DNA of 64,000 nucleotides, from assembly GCA_947495975.1 (NCBI GenBank), contig CANMBE010000013.1:1-64000 (forward strand). The letters run 5' to 3'. Source of the stretch: Ignavibacteria bacterium (GTDB lineage: Bacteria > Bacteroidota > Ignavibacteria > Kapaibacteriales > Kapaibacteriaceae). The notes under the pieces are model-generated. The model saw only the letters and a list, made by a program, of their open reading frames with translations, did no database searches and was not told where the DNA came from. Shown here in pieces: positions 3,550 through 18,311 of this stretch. The first letter of the stretch is position 1. Each line of letters begins with the position of its first letter. A program made the position numbers and the translations under genes.

Positions 3550-4290
3550 GTGTCACAAAACGTAACACTCACAGCACGTGCTTGCATGGTGCACGAAATT
3601 CTATCTGCAATTGAGCACGTGTGGTGTCCGCCGCATTGTCTCCTCAGTGGCGCATATCTTGGTACAACTCCACAGCTTGTGCCTGGGATTGCAGATGCAG
3701 AATTGTTGCATCACCCACCGGCGCCTACGAGTAACGAACTTGGCGTTCTGCTTCTGAGACACTTTGATGCTGATGACCTCGCACTTACTTCTGTCCATGC
3801 CCTCTGGATTGTAGGCACGGGCACTACCATAGATAAGGCCATCTATGCCCTGAAGTATAAAGGGCGCATGCGTCTCGCAGAAAACCTCGGTGCCTGGCTT
3901 GTGCGTCAGCCAGAGTTGGAATGTCTACACGCAGATGTCTTGATTGCTGCGGTGCCAATTCACGCTGCGCGCTACAGAGAGCGAGGGTATAACCAGGCAT
4001 ATCTCATAGCGCGTGGTTGGGCGCACGCCAGTAGGCGTCCCCTCCTGCATGAGGGCGCACTTATCCGGCATCGCTACACTCCCACACAAACCTCACGAAC
4101 GGAAGGAGAGCGCAAAAACAACGTGCAGGGGGCTTTTGGGGTTAAAGACCCCGATTCTGTACGAGGAAGACATGTGATATTGGTTGACGACGTACTAACC
4201 ACGGGCTCTACGCTCAATGCATGTGCCATGGCGCTTCTGGAAGCTGGAGCGCGCCGCGTAGACGCTGCCACACTGTGTGCAGCGGTGTAA
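3550..4290 (+). CDS. ComF-type phosphoribosyltransferase-like protein
   Basis: Member of the ComFC/GntX group, cytoplasmic proteins needed for natural transformation in several bacteria. The phosphoribosyltransferase core is clear: IYALKYKGRMRLAENLGAWL in the middle, RERGYNQAYLIARGWA, and the PRPP-binding loop HVILVDDVLTTGSTLNA near the end. The N-terminal zinc ribbon normal for this family is reduced: WCPPHCLLSG stands where PxxCxxCG is expected, and no second CxxC pair follows. GTG at 3550 is used; ATG at 3586 (MVHEIL) is possible and would keep every motif. It follows kynA by 17 bases. Its presence with dprA about 6 kb downstream suggests competence, by inference. Confidence 0.85.
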   Translation: MSQNVTLTARACMVHEILSAIEHVWCPPHCLLSGAYLGTTPQLVPGIADAELLHHPPAPTSNELGVLLLRHFDADDLALTSVHALWIVGTGTTIDKAIYALKYKGRMRLAENLGAWLVRQPELECLHADVLIAAVPIHAARYRERGYNQAYLIARGWAHASRRPLLHEGALIRHRYTPTQTSRTEGERKNNVQGAFGVKDPDSVRGRHVILVDDVLTTGSTLNACAMALLEAGARRVDAATLCAAV

Positions 4291-5734: not shown

Positions 5735-7081
5735 ATGGCATTTATACGTTCGATCTCTGGACTTCGTGCAACCCTCACTGATGATCTCACCCCTCTTGTT
5801 GTTGCTGAATATGCAGCAGCTTTTGCGGCCGTGTTGCCACCCGGACCAATTGTGGTAGGTCGTGATGGTCGCCCAAGCGGACAATGGATCCAGGATATTG
5901 TTGTTGGTACACTCCGTGTTGCTGGGCGTAACGTGCGGCTACTGGGCATGGCTACAACTCCAACTATCCAGCTCCTCACAGAACATTCCGATGCCGCAGG
6001 TGCAATTGCAATCACTGCTTCGCATAACCCTGCGGAGTGGAACGGTATGAAGTTTCTTGATGTAAACGGCGTTTTCCTCGATGCGGATGCCAACAAAGAA
6101 TTGTGGAAGGTAGTTGATGCACAAGCCCATACAATTGCTAACGATGCGCGCCAGGGCGAGGTGGAATTGATAAGTGACGCTGCGGAACAACACATTGCAA
6201 GAGTGCTCGCTCTTGATGTTGTCCGCTCGGCCCCAATGGCAAGGGGCGAACTCGTTGTTGTTGATGCAGTGAACAGCTCGGGATCTTTCATTGTCCCGCA
6301 GCTCTTGCTCGAACTCGGCTATACCGTCCATAAACTTTTTGCAGACGGCTCAGGAATATTCCCGCACGTGCCAGAGCCAACGGCAGAGAATCTCACACAG
6401 TTAGGTGATGCAGTGCGGGCGAAAAATGCTGCGTTTGGTGTTGCGGTTGACCCAGACGGTGACAGGCTCGTTCTCATTGATGAAACTGGATCTCCCATTG
6501 GAGAAGAGCGCACCATCGCTCTAGCTACACAGGCCGTCATGGCTCTGGGAAACCGAGGAGACGTGGTTGTGAATTATTCCACAACACGAGTTGTGGATGA
6601 CGTAGTAACAGCACATGGATATGTTACTCACCGCGCTTCTGTGGGTGAAATCAATGTGGTTCGAAAAATGCAACACGTCAATGCCGTTATTGGCGGTGAA
6701 GGTTCTGGTGGTGTCATCTATCCCGCATGTCACTCAGGAAGAGATAGCATTGTTGGAATTGGACTTATCACTTCGCTCCTGCGGCATCAAAAGGTGTCGC
6801 TATCACAAGCATGCGCCTCGCTTCCAGTGTACGCAATGGTCAAAACCAAGAAGAGCCTTTCATCAGCATCCAACTTTAGCGCAATACGAGATCTTGTTGT
6901 GGACTCTTTGTCAGATGCCACTATCTCTACCGAAGACGGCGTGTATGCTGCCTGGCCTGACCGTTGGGTACATGTGCGAGCATCCAACACAGAACCAATC
7001 TTGCGCATCATCGCTGAAGCGCCAACCGCAGAAGAAGCACATGAACTCGTTAACCGTATCAGCTCTATGATCCATGGATAA
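5735..7081 (+). CDS. phosphoglucosamine mutase / phosphomannomutase family phosphohexomutase
   Basis: Alpha-D-phosphohexomutase interconverting hexose 1- and 6-phosphates, supplying precursors for cell wall and surface sugars. All four signatures are present: phosphoserine loop TASHNPAEWNGMK, magnesium loop DPDGDRLVLID, sugar-specificity loop GEGSGGVIYPACHSGRD, and phosphate-binding RASNTEPILRI near the C terminus. Length 448 is typical. The GEGSGG loop is compatible with glucosamine-6-phosphate (GlmM) or mannose-6-phosphate; no gene symbol is given because the sequence alone does not decide. The stop overlaps the following methylase-like gene by 8 bases, implying co-transcription and perhaps translational coupling. 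Confidence 0.92.
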   Translation: MAFIRSISGLRATLTDDLTPLVVAEYAAAFAAVLPPGPIVVGRDGRPSGQWIQDIVVGTLRVAGRNVRLLGMATTPTIQLLTEHSDAAGAIAITASHNPAEWNGMKFLDVNGVFLDADANKELWKVVDAQAHTIANDARQGEVELISDAAEQHIARVLALDVVRSAPMARGELVVVDAVNSSGSFIVPQLLLELGYTVHKLFADGSGIFPHVPEPTAENLTQLGDAVRAKNAAFGVAVDPDGDRLVLIDETGSPIGEERTIALATQAVMALGNRGDVVVNYSTTRVVDDVVTAHGYVTHRASVGEINVVRKMQHVNAVIGGEGSGGVIYPACHSGRDSIVGIGLITSLLRHQKVSLSQACASLPVYAMVKTKKSLSSASNFSAIRDLVVDSLSDATISTEDGVYAAWPDRWVHVRASNTEPILRIIAEAPTAEEAHELVNRISSMIHG

Positions 7082-10000
7082 TACTGCACAACTGCGAGGA
7101 ATATCAGACGCTCGAGGAGTACTTGCACTCTGCGTTACAGACGCGATTGATCGGGGTATCACATCGATGCGCGCAGAGGAACACTCAAGCGTTGAGGGTA
7201 CGTTTACCCTAGTGCGAGATAGTGAAACGGGTGCGGCCCTTGTTGTACTTGATGCGTTACTTCCAGCTGAAAGTCCATTCGATGATGTGCCTCGGGACCG
7301 ACTTCGCAATGTAGCCTCGCGATTGCAAGCCCCCTACTTTATGCTGACGAATTTCAGACGTGTTGTGACCTACCGCACCGAAGCTGTAACGCGCAGACTT
7401 CCAGATGAAGATCAGGTAGTTGGATGGCAGGCAGGGGGCGATGTGCAATCGCTTGACGATGTGCGTGTTGCTGCTGCATCGATGAGTGTGGGTACAGCGC
7501 TGAAGCATTCGCTGTCATGGTTGCGAATCGATGCATCGCTCGATCCAGCGCAACAGGTGCGTGATGCATCGGCGTTTTTTGCAGAACGTGTTACGTCAAT
7601 GTTCGACGATATGGTTGCGTGCACGGATGGCTCACTCTTTCAACGAGATGCATCGTTGCGTTTAGGCACAAGTGTGTTGGCCTATGTGTTGTTGCAACTT
7701 CGTCGCCCACATGAACTCGATAGACTGTCTATTCCGTATGGAACGCATAGCGCAGACCTCATGCTCGATCTTGTAGGTGCATTCTTTCGCCAGGCGCGCC
7801 GCAGAGGATTTGCAATGCTTCCATCGCGTGTAGATGACGTGCTGGTTGTGCCAAAGCGCGAAGCAATGTTCCGGATGACGCTGGCAGATCTCGTACACTT
7901 CTTACACCGTTTTGATGCTGAGCGATTGGCAGATGCTGATCTGCATCGAGCCGTTGATGCAGTGTTGCAGCGCTGCGCGCGAGTGCAACGCACGTCCGTG
8001 CCCACGATTGATGCAATTGACCTGGCGCTGCGTGCCGTGGTGTATATACGTGGCAAGCATACTGGCAAGACAACCATGCTAGAGATAGGTCCAACGCAGG
8101 GACTTGCTAGTGTGCGGCAAATATTGATGTCGGGCTCTGACGTTTGTGACGCCCGCGTCTATGCCCCTAGCCCTGATGACGAGCGTGCCGCTGTTCTGCG
8201 ATCAAGCGGGCGTCTTGATGCGGCTACCGATGTGCGGATATTACGAGATACAAAACAAACGAAGACACCATGGGACCTTGTCATTGCATCGTCCACTGAT
8301 CATCATGACCGACACCGACTCCGACTCCTCTTGAGTAGAATGCCAATAGCGGATAACGGCGTTGTTGTGTTGTTCTTGCCTATGTCATCTTTACACGATG
8401 AAGAATATGACGGCATGCGTTATGCACTCACCTCGCGCTTTGCAATTGAATGGGTTTTTGTGAGTGATGCAGAGGCATTGGCAGAACCCGATACAGGAGT
8501 GTGTTGTGTGATTGCTCGCAAGCTCTTGCCCGAGGAAACAGCGCAGCCCCCTGCCCGATTTGTTTATATGCGAAGACCGATTGCAGCATTCTTTCCTACG
8601 TCAAAGGCATCGCGCGATCTCGAACAGGCACGCCTAAAAGCATTGGATGAATTTGTAGCATATCTCGATGCATCAGAGCTTGGCAAGCTCAATGACGAGG
8701 CCGTTGTGCGCATGGTGAGTCAGAGTATACTCCGTGAACGGCCGTCATGGGAAGATTTCCTCATTCCACCCGATATCCTCGCGTCTATCCTCGTCAAGAC
8801 TGGCGCTCATTTACGCTCACTCAAGGACATAGCCGATGTGTCAGGGGGCTTACGTACTGGTGCCAACGAAATCTTTGCGCCTAACACGCATGATATTTCT
8901 AACGATGATTTAGAGATGCAGTATTGGCAACGAACAACGCCTGATGGATCTGTTCGAGACAACATCATCCTTACGTCATCAGATGATGTAGACACCATAA
9001 TGGGACTGCCACGCTCTGACCGTAGACTATTGTTGCTCCCTTCTGAGCGAAACACAATGCTTGGAACAAACGTGCTCACGCGCATTGAACACGCAGAGCG
9101 CGATGGTATACATCTGAGACCATCAGTGCGGCACAGAGATGTGTGGTGGCACTTGCAGCCCCCTCCCATTTTTGATATCGTCATTGCCAAACATCAAGTG
9201 GACCGATGGCTTGTTTGCGCAAACACCGTTGGAGCATTTATCACTGATGCATTCATTGGAGTTTTGCTGCACGAAGCATCGCGCACAGAAGCAATGACGT
9301 TATGGATGAATTCTTCCGTTGGACTTTTTCTAACAGAGCTCGTACGGCTCGAGGACAACGTCTTAGATATCACCGTGCGTGATGCACAGGAGTTTCCAGT
9401 TCCAAATGATGCGATACTTGATGCTATTGATGTAAAACGTCATCTACAGCTCGCACGTAGGCCTGTGCGGTCGCTCGTTGCGGAGTTTGGCGCTGCGTCT
9501 TCAGACAGTGTACGCCAAGAAACCGTTCACCGAGACAGACGCAAGCTAGATGAATGGTTAATGCAGGATGTGTTTGCATTAACTGATGAAGAGCAGCGAT
9601 GGGTGTATCGTTTTGCCTTTGCGTGGTGGTCGCGCCCAAGCAATGTGCGCCATCTCACCAATGCTCTTGCAAACGAACTCGAGCGCAAGCACAAGATCAA
9701 GCCACTGCGTTTTTGGTATACACCGTTACTTGAGCAACTGCCCGAGGAACATCGTCGCACAGTTATTGTTGATTCTGGCCTTACTCGTGCGGAGGTTGGC
9801 GGAACGATGTTTGGTTGGAGAGTAACATGTTGGAAAGGGGCTCGCCAGGACACCGTCATCGATTGCGGCTCGCAGGAAGAAGCCGAGATCATTGCCTTGT
9901 TCTTAAACCTCGGCAAAGTAACAGTGGAAGTTCCGAGCGATGCGATTATCATTGCCGATGTGCTGCCACGCTTAAGAGCCTTTAGCGAAGACCTAGCACG

Positions 10001-10088
10001 CACGCTCGAAGACGTTGCCTCCACCGTTCCTGCCGATTTACGTCCAGCCCTCGCAAGAAGCGTACGGGCAACGATGACGGCGCTGTAG
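7074..10088 (+). CDS. N6-adenine DNA-methylase-like protein with degenerate catalytic motifs
   Basis: A 1004-residue protein with the architecture of large adenine methylases of restriction systems (Eco57I/TaqI class): an N-terminal region of about 330 residues, a Rossmann-like methylase region (about 335-480), a target-recognition-like region beginning near SGGLRTGANEIFAP (about 590-603) and a C-terminal alpha/beta part. The recognition hallmark (G..TGAN..F) is well kept. The catalytic part is not: the SAM-binding motif reads LEIGPTQG instead of DPxxGxG, and the NPPY motif position reads WDLVIASSTD. Methylation activity is therefore unlikely, although a DNA-binding role could remain. It overlaps the mutase by 8 bases and ends 73 bases before dprA. 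The frame is intact over 3 kb, so it looks selected, not decaying. No nuclease gene is adjacent. Confidence 0.75.
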   Translation: MDNTAQLRGISDARGVLALCVTDAIDRGITSMRAEEHSSVEGTFTLVRDSETGAALVVLDALLPAESPFDDVPRDRLRNVASRLQAPYFMLTNFRRVVTYRTEAVTRRLPDEDQVVGWQAGGDVQSLDDVRVAAASMSVGTALKHSLSWLRIDASLDPAQQVRDASAFFAERVTSMFDDMVACTDGSLFQRDASLRLGTSVLAYVLLQLRRPHELDRLSIPYGTHSADLMLDLVGAFFRQARRRGFAMLPSRVDDVLVVPKREAMFRMTLADLVHFLHRFDAERLADADLHRAVDAVLQRCARVQRTSVPTIDAIDLALRAVVYIRGKHTGKTTMLEIGPTQGLASVRQILMSGSDVCDARVYAPSPDDERAAVLRSSGRLDAATDVRILRDTKQTKTPWDLVIASSTDHHDRHRLRLLLSRMPIADNGVVVLFLPMSSLHDEEYDGMRYALTSRFAIEWVFVSDAEALAEPDTGVCCVIARKLLPEETAQPPARFVYMRRPIAAFFPTSKASRDLEQARLKALDEFVAYLDASELGKLNDEAVVRMVSQSILRERPSWEDFLIPPDILASILVKTGAHLRSLKDIADVSGGLRTGANEIFAPNTHDISNDDLEMQYWQRTTPDGSVRDNIILTSSDDVDTIMGLPRSDRRLLLLPSERNTMLGTNVLTRIEHAERDGIHLRPSVRHRDVWWHLQPPPIFDIVIAKHQVDRWLVCANTVGAFITDAFIGVLLHEASRTEAMTLWMNSSVGLFLTELVRLEDNVLDITVRDAQEFPVPNDAILDAIDVKRHLQLARRPVRSLVAEFGAASSDSVRQETVHRDRRKLDEWLMQDVFALTDEEQRWVYRFAFAWWSRPSNVRHLTNALANELERKHKIKPLRFWYTPLLEQLPEEHRRTVIVDSGLTRAEVGGTMFGWRVTCWKGARQDTVIDCGSQEEAEIIALFLNLGKVTVEVPSDAIIIADVLPRLRAFSEDLARTLEDVASTVPADLRPALARSVRATMTAL

Positions 10089-10161: not shown

Positions 10162-11178
10162 ATGCAGATCAAAGAAATCATTGCTCTCTCTTTTGCTGGA
10201 CGTCTCACTTCAGCAGATGTGCGGGAGCACGCAACAACACACGCAACGCTCGATGATGCGCTTGAAGCAATTGGACGTCATCCGATGGATCTTCTTGTGC
10301 AGGCAGAGCACCAATTGGACCGCTGCGCGGCGCTAGGTGTAGAGGCCATTGCATTTGATGACGTGAGATACCCTCGGCGTCTATTGAACATAGAACGCTA
10401 TCCTGCCGTGATATATGTAAAGGGGGCGCTCCCACCCGAGAATGCAGGGTCAGTTGCTGTTGTAGGCACGCGGGCATGCACGGTGCACTATGGCAAGCCT
10501 GTAACAGAGATGTTTGTTGAGGAATGGACGAAACGTGGATGCGTGATAACGAGTGGACTTGCGAATGGCATTGACATGATTGCGCACGAAACATCGTTAC
10601 GGTTCAACGGTCGCACCATCGCAGTCATCGCAAGTGGTATCGATCGCATCACACCTATTGCGGCGAACATGTTGGCAGATCGCATTGCCTCTAACAATGG
10701 ATGCGTGATTTCGGAACATGCGTGCGGTGTAGCTGCGTTGCCACCGTACTTCCCTGCGCGTAACAGAATCATTTCGGGACTCAGTGATGCTGTTGTGGTT
10801 ATAGAGAGCAAGACAAAAGGTGGCGCGCTTATAACAGCCAACTTCGCTTTGAAACAAGGCAAGTCATTGTTTGCAGTGCCCGGTCCAATCACGTCATCTC
10901 GAAGCGAGGGATGTCACGCTCTGATACGATCTGGAGCCGCGCAATGTGTTGTGAATGCATATGACATACAAAGCTCGGTTCAGTTTGATAGCGATACCTT
11001 TGCCTCGTCTCATGTTGAAGCAGTTCCTGGCCTTGATGATGGCGAAGCTCACCTCGTGGACGCCATAGCGCAACGATGGAAGTGTACCGTGCAAGAGGCA
11101 TTATCAAGACTTCTCACTCTTGAAATGGACGGTCGAGTGCAACAACTGCCTGGTCAGCGATTTGTGGCAAGGGGCTGA
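10162..11178 (+). CDS. dprA: DNA processing protein DprA
   Basis: DprA binds incoming single-stranded DNA and loads RecA during natural transformation; cytoplasmic. The Rossmann-like core is complete: VAVVGTRACT, ITSGLANGIDMIAHE, FPARNRIISGLSDAVVVIES, GALITANFALKQGK, LFAVPGPI and a final IRSGAA. A short helical N-terminal segment precedes it, and a C-terminal winged-helix-like tail (DAIAQRWKCTVQEALSRL) is present, as in the two-domain DprA form. Length 338 is typical. ATG at 10162 is the only start that fits. The 73 bases before it contain no obvious ribosome site. It is placed between the degenerate methylase-like gene and isoprenoid genes; with the ComF-like gene this supports a competent lifestyle, by inference. 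Confidence 0.95.
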   Translation: MQIKEIIALSFAGRLTSADVREHATTHATLDDALEAIGRHPMDLLVQAEHQLDRCAALGVEAIAFDDVRYPRRLLNIERYPAVIYVKGALPPENAGSVAVVGTRACTVHYGKPVTEMFVEEWTKRGCVITSGLANGIDMIAHETSLRFNGRTIAVIASGIDRITPIAANMLADRIASNNGCVISEHACGVAALPPYFPARNRIISGLSDAVVVIESKTKGGALITANFALKQGKSLFAVPGPITSSRSEGCHALIRSGAAQCVVNAYDIQSSVQFDSDTFASSHVEAVPGLDDGEAHLVDAIAQRWKCTVQEALSRLLTLEMDGRVQQLPGQRFVARG

Positions 11179-14939: not shown

Positions 14940-16682
14940 TCAGTCAGTGATTACAAATTTGTTTCTCGCAATTATTTTATTGCCTTGTGTCAGTCGAGTG
15001 AAATAAAGTCCACTTGGTAAAGTATCCAGGTGCAAAGTAATTGTCTGCCCTGAAATATTTTTTATCTGTTTTACTTGCTGTCCGAATGAATTATAAACTG
15101 TCAGGGTTGCGTCTGTAAAAATTTTGGATGTCTGCAAAGTTGTCTGCGTAGAAAAAGGATTTGGATACACACATACATATTCATCGTCTATAGGTATCGC
15201 TTGTATAGACGTGACTCCTGTAATTCCACAAGCAGAACTCGTTTGTCCAGATACTACATAATCTGAAAGGCAGTTGATATAACATTCTAAATTGGTGTAA
15301 CCATTAATTCCAGTTATTGAATTTGAAAGTCCTGTTCCGTTATGATCCTGGATTCCCTTATTTAAACCATGGGAGGTTTCCCAATAATCTGGCATACCAT
15401 CATTATCTGAATCTGTTAAAGGCGATGGAGGGTTAGCCGGATTAAAATCAAGGATATAGGCATCATGATAATGATCCAGGGAATCTACAAGTGGTAAAGC
15501 GGGTGTATTAGTGGGTAAGAAGCTGAACAAACGCCTATCCATGCTATCACGCGGAAATGCACCTACATTTCCATAAACATAATCAGTCAATTGATTCGTT
15601 GGGGTGTAGGTAATTAATGGGAAAGGATGTCTTATTGACTCTTGGGTTAATGTTCCAAAATTTGTATTTGGATTATTTCCCGTAGTTGAAAAATCATCAC
15701 AGCAATAAAAAAGATCGTAATCTGCATAACTCGGATATAAATTCATTTTGTTGCCATTTGCATAAAAACGATTTGATGAGAAATTCAAAAAATCATATGA
15801 AATCATTCCTCCTGTATAAGTAGAACGGCTTACACTATAATTATTTACCCAATTCATATTGAGGAAAAATGAATCTATAGGTAAAGGTGCTGTTTGATCA
15901 ATGTTTGAATTGTACCAAATGTTAATTGCCTGATCCCAAATCAGATTATTTGATAGTTCAATATTTAAAGGTCGAGAACCGCAGTAAGGAGATTCACAAC
16001 TAAATTCCGGCATTCTTCCACCAATTCTGTTCCATACATTGTGATGAATACTAATACTATCTTGTGGATGCTCAACACTTGAATAATTCATTAGCAGTCC
16101 CCCTAAATAATAATGTTCTCCTAATGTTTCAGCCAACGAACAATTCTGAAGTGTAATATGAGTTGAATTTGACATCTGAACACATTCATCAACCGCATTT
16201 GCAAAAGAACAATGATCTACAATCGTATTGGAAGCACCGTCAAATCGGAAAGCATCCTCAAGAACATAGCCCTGTCCGGTAATGGTTGAATCGGTATTAG
16301 GACGAGAACGAACATGACGAATAATGATATTATCTCCTGTTCCTACAGTGTCGTATATCTCATCTATAACAAAACCTCTAACTGTGATACCTCCAGGCGA
16401 AGTTTGACCTGCTAAAGTGAAATCACCGTATATCACCTCTGCTGCGGCATTAATTATGCCGCTGACTTTAAAAAGAATATAACGCGATCCTGGGGTTGCC
16501 AAAGCTTCTGCTAAAGAACCGGGCCCACTTGGGTTAAGGTTGATAACATAAATAACCTGACCTCCACGACCACCAAGTGTTCCTGCTCCAAATCCTTCTG
16601 CTCCGGGAAATGAAGGGATAGTTTGTGCTTTCCCAATAGAGAAACACATAAATGCGAATAATACTACGATTGCTTTTTTCAT
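14940..16682 (-). CDS. secreted pectate lyase-like protein (PL1 type) with T9SS sorting domain
   Basis: 580 residues: signal peptide (KKAIVVLFAFMCFSIGKAQ), a right-handed beta-helix polysaccharide lyase domain starting SFPGAEGFGAGTLGGRGG and continuing with FTLAGQTSPGGITVRG and IIIRHVRSRP, a calcium-binding-type spacer SDNDGMPDYWETSHGLN plus GYTNLECYINCL as commonly follows bacterial pectate lyases, and a T9SS type A sorting domain (VYPNPFSTQTTL to the end). It should be exported and cleave pectin-like polysaccharide. Base composition is much lower in G+C than its surroundings. The ATG directly abuts the stop of the upstream YHYH gene, so both form an operon inside the IS-flanked island. Origin in Bacteroidota by transfer is inferred. 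Confidence 0.88.
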   Translation of the reverse strand: MKKAIVVLFAFMCFSIGKAQTIPSFPGAEGFGAGTLGGRGGQVIYVINLNPSGPGSLAEALATPGSRYILFKVSGIINAAAEVIYGDFTLAGQTSPGGITVRGFVIDEIYDTVGTGDNIIIRHVRSRPNTDSTITGQGYVLEDAFRFDGASNTIVDHCSFANAVDECVQMSNSTHITLQNCSLAETLGEHYYLGGLLMNYSSVEHPQDSISIHHNVWNRIGGRMPEFSCESPYCGSRPLNIELSNNLIWDQAINIWYNSNIDQTAPLPIDSFFLNMNWVNNYSVSRSTYTGGMISYDFLNFSSNRFYANGNKMNLYPSYADYDLFYCCDDFSTTGNNPNTNFGTLTQESIRHPFPLITYTPTNQLTDYVYGNVGAFPRDSMDRRLFSFLPTNTPALPLVDSLDHYHDAYILDFNPANPPSPLTDSDNDGMPDYWETSHGLNKGIQDHNGTGLSNSITGINGYTNLECYINCLSDYVVSGQTSSACGITGVTSIQAIPIDDEYVCVYPNPFSTQTTLQTSKIFTDATLTVYNSFGQQVKQIKNISGQTITLHLDTLPSGLYFTRLTQGNKIIARNKFVITD

Positions 16683-18311
16683 TTATTGAATAATCAATTT
16701 TTGAGTTAGTCGGTTTTTCGGAAACTGAATTTGCATTAAGTAAATTCCTTTGGTTATGTTTTTAATTTCAATATCGGGTTGAAAGTGTTTTGTTAGAAAA
16801 ATTAACTCACCTTGTAAATTATAAATTGAAATTTCACGTACATCTTTTTGTTGATCAGTATTATTCAACTGCAAATGAAACACTCCACTGGTCGGGTTCG
16901 GATAAATCAATACACTGTTTTCTACCGCGCCAACATTTTTGATTGAAGTTAGAACTGCACATTTCGTGGAACCGTTATATGTTGATGTAGTGCTTGTTCC
17001 GTTTCCAACAGTAAAAAAATTAAAAGTGTAAAGTCCAGCAGCATTCCAATAATATACGATTGAATCAGTTTGCCCACGCAAAGTATAAGTCAACGTGTAA
17101 CCGTTGTTCGTTGCGTTAGGTGTGCATCCTGTTATCAATGCTCCGTTAAGCGGAGTTAATCCTGGTCTTACAGGACGAGAAGCTGCCTGCGGAATAAGTT
17201 GATGTGTTGCATCTTCGGTAACTACTCCTACCATATTTGCAATCATGTATGGTGCCGCTGCCGTTCCGTGATAATGATATACACCGTTAAATAAATGTCC
17301 GTGGTTGGCATCTAACGTTTGCATAGATGTTCCATCGGGTTCTACACGTCCATAAACTGCAAAGCCATCTAATCCAAACGCAATAGGTAAAGTAGAAGTT
17401 GTGTAACTGTATAAATGTAACGGTGCAATGTGATAATGGTAATCATCAGCCCTGCCGCAATGTCCTCCGTAATTATCTAATTGCCCGTCCAAATAAGAAT
17501 CAACTCCTGTGTTTGTATGCACATTAAATATTGGAACGCCATTTACTGCAATTGCTATTGCACCTCTTGTAAAATGAATGCTGTCGACAGGAATTGGAAT
17601 AGCTGCTATTAAAGGATTTAAAGGAATACTCCATGCGTTGTTGCCGACATAACATTGTGGAATTGGAACTTGTTGTTGCCAACCATGATTTGAAATGCCA
17701 ACCATCATTCCGTGTGTTGTTGGAATACCTTTTGATTCAACATAAAAATAAGTGGTATCCCAAAAAGTATTCACATTGGGTTTGAAAGGAACAAAAGCCG
17801 AATCAATAAAAGCGGGAGAGGTAATGCTTTGCATGGACTCTATAACATCAGCTGTGAAACTGTATAAAGTCATACTTGCTCCAACAATTAAAACAGGAAT
17901 TAAATATTTCAGTTTATTTTTTTCGGTGAATGAAAACATGCACCAACCTAATCCAAGAAGCAAAACAAGTACTAGCCAAATTTGATAATGAGAAAATAAT
18001 TGAACTTTTATGGGTTGATCTGTCTCTACAAGTCGTTGATTGTTTAATTGCTTAACCCATTCATTTTTTTTCAATGCAAAGGCCTGGTCTTCTTTTGACA
18101 AAGCAGATAGTGGATAAGCAATCACATTACTGTTAGCATCTACAATAAAAACATTCCCGCTTTTAAGCATGTAAAAAGAACCGTCAACAGTTTTGTGTTC
18201 TTTTTCAATTGTCCAATGCTGTAAAATTATTTTTTCATGATTGATGTCGTGAGCAAAAATTACATTACTTGTTAAGCAAAGTAGTATCACTATACTGTTT
18301 TTGATTTTCAT
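16683..18311 (-). CDS. YHYH domain protein with membrane segments and T9SS sorting domain
   Basis: 542 residues. After a signal peptide (to about residue 20) comes a short module with the pattern of an SHD1-type domain (IAYPLSALSKEDQAFA, about 63-80), then two hydrophobic segments (about 108-128 and 136-156), then a YHYH domain: GGHCGRADDYHYHIAPLHLY and GVYHYHGTAAAPYM. The C terminus is a T9SS sorting domain (IYPNPTSGVFHL onward, ending KLIIQ). The function of YHYH proteins is not established. Internal membrane helices are unusual for a T9SS cargo, which should cross the outer membrane. The A-rich leader before ATG with no Shine-Dalgarno is typical of Bacteroidota. Left end of an IS3-like element lies about 35 bases upstream. 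Confidence 0.8.
   Translation of the reverse strand: MKIKNSIVILLCLTSNVIFAHDINHEKIILQHWTIEKEHKTVDGSFYMLKSGNVFIVDANSNVIAYPLSALSKEDQAFALKKNEWVKQLNNQRLVETDQPIKVQLFSHYQIWLVLVLLLGLGWCMFSFTEKNKLKYLIPVLIVGASMTLYSFTADVIESMQSITSPAFIDSAFVPFKPNVNTFWDTTYFYVESKGIPTTHGMMVGISNHGWQQQVPIPQCYVGNNAWSIPLNPLIAAIPIPVDSIHFTRGAIAIAVNGVPIFNVHTNTGVDSYLDGQLDNYGGHCGRADDYHYHIAPLHLYSYTTSTLPIAFGLDGFAVYGRVEPDGTSMQTLDANHGHLFNGVYHYHGTAAAPYMIANMVGVVTEDATHQLIPQAASRPVRPGLTPLNGALITGCTPNATNNGYTLTYTLRGQTDSIVYYWNAAGLYTFNFFTVGNGTSTTSTYNGSTKCAVLTSIKNVGAVENSVLIYPNPTSGVFHLQLNNTDQQKDVREISIYNLQGELIFLTKHFQPDIEIKNITKGIYLMQIQFPKNRLTQKLIIQ

Follow-up and report, generated by a model that had tools for sequence, protein, structure and literature searches.

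A core protein of one Kapaibacteria family, apparently catalytically dead and descended from a Type IIG restriction-modification enzyme, is encoded directly downstream of glmM

In this study, we examined an open reading frame at positions 7074 to 10088 on the forward strand of the window, by which we mean the whole 64,000-nucleotide stretch of Ignavibacteria DNA that was analysed; the product of this frame is named Q here. The frame starts with ATG and contains no internal stop over 1,004 codons. Its start lies within the end of the upstream gene, glmM (phosphoglucosamine mutase; 5735 to 7081, forward strand; TIGR03990, 440.5 bits against a cut-off of 439), whose stop codon ends at 7081, giving an 8-nt overlap. 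The dprA gene (10162 to 11178, forward strand; TIGR00732, 222 bits against a cut-off of 191) starts 73 nt past the Q stop codon and is the usual, but not a constant, 3' neighbour. The gene order in the window is homocysteine methyltransferase/MTHFR-like, RDD-like, tryptophan dioxygenase-like, ComF-like, Xaa-Pro peptidase-like, glmM, Q, dprA, fni, polyprenyl synthase and murD, where the names come from reading the sequences and curated models were applied to glmM, dprA and the ComF-like gene alone. The window genome has one copy of Q, which appears to be a full-length, catalytically dead derivative of a Type IIG restriction-modification enzyme. The original prediction had described an intact 1,004-residue frame overlapping the upstream gene, which was confirmed, and had named three landmarks, LEIGPTQG, ASST and SGGLRTGANEIF, all of which were found in Q, at residues 336 to 343, 405 to 408 and 590 to 601, respectively.

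Within an order-level survey of 123 genomes, full-length orthologues of Q were confined to the window's own Kapaibacteria family, where Q was present in 22 of 23 genomes and in all seven genera. In one of these genomes (G022) the gene is divided between two contigs, and the alignments comprise the other 21 full-length orthologues. A true absence of Q from the remaining genome (G007) was considered and rejected: its 7,354-nt contig ends inside glmM, and the genome likewise yielded no dprA; therefore, the locus is unassembled. In a scan of approximately 85,000 species representatives, genomes holding conserved Q peptides belonged to the same clade alone, and many of these records carry the title Candidatus Kapaibacterium or Ignavibacteria. 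Two contigs with the synteny of the Q family (L064 and L078) are titled "Melioribacter roseus P3M-2" and "Bradyrhizobiaceae bacterium", labels that look wrong. Phage and viral collections contained no relative of Q, and a plasmid collection yielded a single match, from Thermococcus, that was limited to the target-recognition domain (TRD). The searches made outside the family found no full-length relative with the catalytic losses described below.

None of the full-length members contains a stop codon or a frameshift. We quote dN/dS for the pairs G005/G008 and G006/G009 alone, since other pairs were mostly unreliable owing to saturated synonymous sites. For these two pairs the values were 0.078 and 0.070 for Q, 0.115 and 0.059 for glmM, and 0.148 and 0.091 for dprA; constraint on Q is about equal to that on its two neighbours. 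The apparently dead methyltransferase core gave 0.00 and 0.034, a constraint at least as strong as that on the rest of the protein. Distances between Q proteins tracked those of eight neighbouring genes (r of 0.79 to 0.91), as expected under vertical inheritance, and Q is a vertically inherited, single-copy gene. Because stop-free, full-length orthologues occur family-wide and dN/dS is far below 1, Q is not a chance frame, and the proposal that it is under selection was upheld. A decaying relic without function would agree with the loss of both active sites and with a catalytic domain that is still shrinking in some members; however, this reading is contradicted by the selection data (dN/dS of 0.07 to 0.08, no stops or frameshifts in full-length members, and retention in all seven genera), and we regard it as scarcely credible.

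Searches of Pfam and NCBIfam with the single window sequence gave no match even at an E value of 1 or less, and a PDB sequence search gave no useful match. A PADLOC Type II methyltransferase profile was matched by all 21 members, with the window protein matching over its TRD half. For comparison, a profile was built from seven relatives with intact motifs, which are termed active-type on the basis of their sequences. Aligned against this profile by hhalign, the Q profile matched over 935 columns (probability, 99.9%; E value, 7e-37). The AlphaFold model of Q had a mean pLDDT of 86.9 and a pTM of 0.76, and the top solved structure retrieved with it by Foldseek was the Type IIG enzyme BpuSI (E value, 2.1e-20; 946 columns). 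VIA-align superposed residues 7 to 855 of the model on BpuSI with 699 residues aligned, a Z score of 16.9 and an rmsd of 14 Å, a large value that would be expected if the domain orientations in the model differ.

Five regions of Q were delineated, all on the forward strand. Residues 1 to 126 (7074 to 7451) form a degenerate PD-(D/E)XK nuclease domain that aligned to the active-type nuclease and has the predicted order helix 3-27, strands 32-39, 42-49 and 55-61, helix 71-83, and strands 88-92 and 96-101. A helical spacer domain (residues 127 to 306; 7452 to 7991) aligns with the helical region of Type I HsdM and BpuSI. It is followed by a degenerate N6-adenine methyltransferase core (residues 307 to 500; 7992 to 8573), which VIA-align matched to the N6-adenine methyltransferases M.BseCI, HsdM, CamA and M.TaqI with Z scores of 14 to 18. 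The target-recognition-like region (residues 566 to 790; 8769 to 9443) is the best conserved part of the protein and is net acidic, and C-terminal helical and terminal domains occupy residues 791 to 1004 (9444 to 10085). By both hhalign and Foldseek, the nuclease, helical, N6-adenine methyltransferase and TRD elements are fused in one chain; the whole Type IIG architecture was thus recovered by profile and structure comparison. These alignments and the model indicate that the ancestor of Q was a fused Type IIG restriction-modification enzyme. The methylase ancestry originally proposed stands, but with the amendment that the ancestor would have carried a nuclease as well, which now also appears dead.

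Loss of the active sites was scored across the 21 full-length orthologues at residues that are invariant in the seven active-type relatives. At the nuclease active-site position (residues 42 to 62; 7197 to 7259, forward strand), the window protein lacks the Asp and has DAL in place of ExK. The active-type residues D63, E80 and K82 are invariant in 7/7 relatives, and a complete triad occurs in 0/21 Q proteins: D63 aligns to a gap, E80 has mostly become Asp, and K82 is hydrophobic in nearly all. Motif X (GQxFT), invariant in the seven relatives, is gone from all 21 members, and the similarly invariant motif III-like DF is lost. At motif I (residues 336 to 343; 8079 to 8102, forward strand), Q has LEIGPTQG where the active-type sequence is LDPSCGAG; the Asp is replaced by Glu and the first Gly of GxG by Thr, Ser or Ala in 21/21 proteins, and E337, G339 and G343 of the turn are invariant in the same 21. 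At motif IV (residues 405 to 408; 8286 to 8297, forward strand), ASST replaces GNPPY and its loop. The active-type motif is NPPY (NFPF once among the seven), and its N499, together with P501, Q505 and E506, corresponds to gaps in 21/21 members, none of which contains NPPY or NPPF anywhere in its sequence. In the model, helix 410-422 directly follows strand 400-406, where the NPPY loop would sit. In RM.BpuSI, the substitution N406A, within NPPY, is sufficient to abolish SAM binding, methylation and cleavage (PMC3817140).

Judged by these motifs, both catalytic centres are gone from 21/21 full-length orthologues, and we infer that Q lacks enzymatic activity. The predicted loss of SAM motif I and NPPY in the window protein therefore extends to the whole family, and none of the 21 sequences shows a preserved SAM pocket with NPPY moved elsewhere; the degenerate N-terminal nuclease and the losses of motifs X and III go beyond what had been proposed. 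For the SAM pockets the comparison relied on alignment alone, since a model of an active-type relative from another family (L109), built from seven sequences, was poor (pLDDT of 52) and was not used. Q is also distinguished from orphan N6-adenine methyltransferases of the M.Eco57I, PglX and CamA kind by the absence of intact motifs I and IV. In two genomes (G014 and G019), approximately 50 residues are missing after motif I while the C-terminal half is kept, and this deletion, together with the lost catalytic motifs, argues that the SAM site is dispensable for whatever selection maintains in Q. In these two proteins (L044 and L049), the missing segment lies beside the motif I turn whose E337, G339 and G343 are invariant in all members.

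That Q might still be an enzyme, binding SAM through a modified motif I (ExGxTxG) and a noncanonical motif IV or needing a partner subunit, is highly unlikely. The invariance of E337, G339 and G343 would suit such an enzyme, and ExG is a common form of motif I among other Rossmann methyltransferases; however, motifs X, III and IV are all gone, G014 and G019 have dropped the residues after motif I, and Eco57I-type methylases vary by member and were undetected in 4 of 15 genomes, so that no constant partner of this type was seen.

The gene order around Q is conserved family-wide with local changes. The glmM gene is directly upstream in 22/22 genomes, and its spacing to Q ranges from -8 to +18 nt across 21/21 loci measured. 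The dprA gene lies 39 to 119 nt 3' of Q at 17 loci, but the spacing widens to 1.7 kb in G015 and to 5 kb in G012; in G011 dprA is on a separate contig. Since the glmM gap is kept throughout while the dprA spacing breaks, the constant partner of Q is glmM, and the link to dprA is common but not universal; Q is probably cotranslated with GlmM. The adjacency to dprA given in the original prediction thus holds in the window and at most loci surveyed but not across the family.

Two of the interrupted loci carry additional genes between Q and dprA. In G012 (L042, 11484 to 15940), the gap holds an intact restriction-modification gene of the MmeI type (Pfam MmeI_N, MmeI_hel, MmeI_Mtase and MmeI_TRD) and a gene for a HipA_C protein, which places an apparently active Type II enzyme beside the apparently dead one, and in G015 (L045, 10460 to 11437) it holds an Abi_2 abortive-infection-like gene. 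These two cases suggest that the interval between Q and dprA is a place where defence genes insert.

The position of Q, mostly immediately 5' of dprA and with a comF-like gene three genes upstream, raises the question of whether it serves natural transformation with DprA and the ComF-like protein, perhaps as a binder of incoming DNA, and a search of 15 family genomes detected ComEC in 13. However, across the order almost every genome has dprA and ComEC, with or without Q, and it is dprA that stands apart in G011, G012 and G015 whereas the coupling to glmM is unbroken; we consider a role in transformation unlikely.

The landmark SGGLRTGANEIF (residues 590 to 601; 8841 to 8876, forward strand) is a TRD loop. 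The GGxRTGA loop is nearly invariant in the family, and G592, R594, T595, G596 and A597 are fully so. Positions shared between Q and the active-type relatives number 7.1 to 7.5 per 100 within residues 566 to 870 and 1.1 to 4.6 elsewhere, the densest being the TRD and the helical region after it; a further 61 positions are conserved within Q alone and are spread across all domains. The TRD region (566 to 790) has a net negative charge in 21/21 Q proteins (-1 to -13) and a net positive one in 7/7 active-type relatives (+1 to +13). No other domain separates the two groups in this way, although the sequences of a group share ancestry and net charge is a coarse measure that is blind to local basic patches. 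The charge inversion should be read as a warning against simple retained DNA binding and not as proof of its loss. The TRD landmarks are invariant, but with the shift of net charge from positive to negative the original description of Q as a DNA-binding protein is not established.

A second possibility is that a dead Type IIG descendant has also lost DNA binding and now regulates other proteins or serves as their scaffold, for instance in association with GlmM or with the pathway that makes cell-envelope precursors. Several observations fit: the family-wide charge inversion; charge-reversed residues such as D561, D649 and D725, where active-type proteins mostly have Lys or Arg; the family-specific positions in all domains, including D75 and R74/R76/R78/R83 on the former nuclease helix; and the close spacing to glmM at 21/21 loci while some genomes have lost dprA adjacency. 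However, the TRD loop and the W, R and N landmarks common to active enzymes remain invariant, net charge misses local basic patches, and operon position is no proof of interaction. We regard this scaffold role as a tentative alternative. Stated more broadly, and with similar reserve, Q may have lost both chemistries, changed its TRD charge and become a core, nonenzymatic protein cotranslated with GlmM, acting by protein contacts or unusual DNA recognition in the control of the cell envelope or of DNA processing.

Our preferred reading, held with no more than even confidence, is that Q is a Type IIG enzyme that has lost both activities and been exapted to work by binding and not by catalysis. 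We postulate that the common ancestor of one Kapaibacteria family captured a Type IIG gene 3' of glmM, that both catalytic centres had already disappeared when the family began to diversify, and that Q was then retained as a core gene, now noncatalytic and working through binding. The likeliest ligand would be DNA, contacted through the kept target-recognition architecture and the invariant GGxRTGA loop, and binding would perhaps occupy or mark sites or have a regulatory effect; both the ligand and what its binding achieves are guesses. Among the possible modes of action we rank DNA binding first, with a scaffold role close behind. The retention of E337, G339 and G343 counts against the preferred reading, in that a remnant nucleotide-binding turn may persist.

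Q resembles Type IIG enzymes (BpuSI; PADLOC REase_MTase_IIG, PDLC03606) in domain order, length, near-whole-chain fold and the TRD motif GxxTGAN but lacks their nuclease and methyltransferase catalytic motifs; unlike these patchily distributed, mobile defence genes, it is a family-wide core gene in a housekeeping operon. With BREX PglX/BrxX and M.Eco57I-type proteins it shares a TRD-bearing N6-adenine methyltransferase fold, although their catalytic motifs are intact, and the syntenic neighbours of Q across the family include no brx or pgl genes but instead housekeeping genes, glmM and dprA. The pseudo-methyltransferases METTL14 and DNMT3L likewise have a methyltransferase fold without catalysis and act with an active partner; they belong to different families, and no such partner is known for Q.

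Restriction enzymes are usually patchy in distribution, mobile and soon lost once broken. By its motifs Q can neither cut nor methylate, yet it is under strong purifying selection over seven genera, which would make it a clear case of the exaptation of a complete defence enzyme. In the titles and abstracts of open-licence papers, we found no dead Type IIG protein, pseudo-methylase, or dprA-tied or Kapabacteria methyltransferase like Q, in agreement with the original statement that no role had been described; its job is probably new and nonenzymatic, with no published description found there. The family offers a natural set of "dead" Type IIG proteins in which the recognition scaffold can be studied by itself, and it carries a caution for methylome work, namely, that Q-like genes should not be annotated as methylases.

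The closest full-length relative found, and the best profile match outside the family, is encoded at 493 to 3564 of L109, from a genome of another family of the same order (G066). In PADLOC it matched REase_MTase_IIG (8e-54), and in Pfam it matched N6_Mtase and Eco57I. Unlike Q, it keeps PD...EAK, GQYFT, DPSCGAG and NPPY, and its 4-kb contig shows neither glmM nor dprA. A TAA precedes the last approximately 140 residues, with the same frame readable beyond it (3562 to 4003), and reflects either recent decay or an assembly error; a RadC-like reading lies upstream. Elsewhere in the window, the reverse strand at 14940 to 18311 encodes two adjacent secreted proteins with Por_Secre_tail domains (type IX secretion), one of which also has a YHYH domain.
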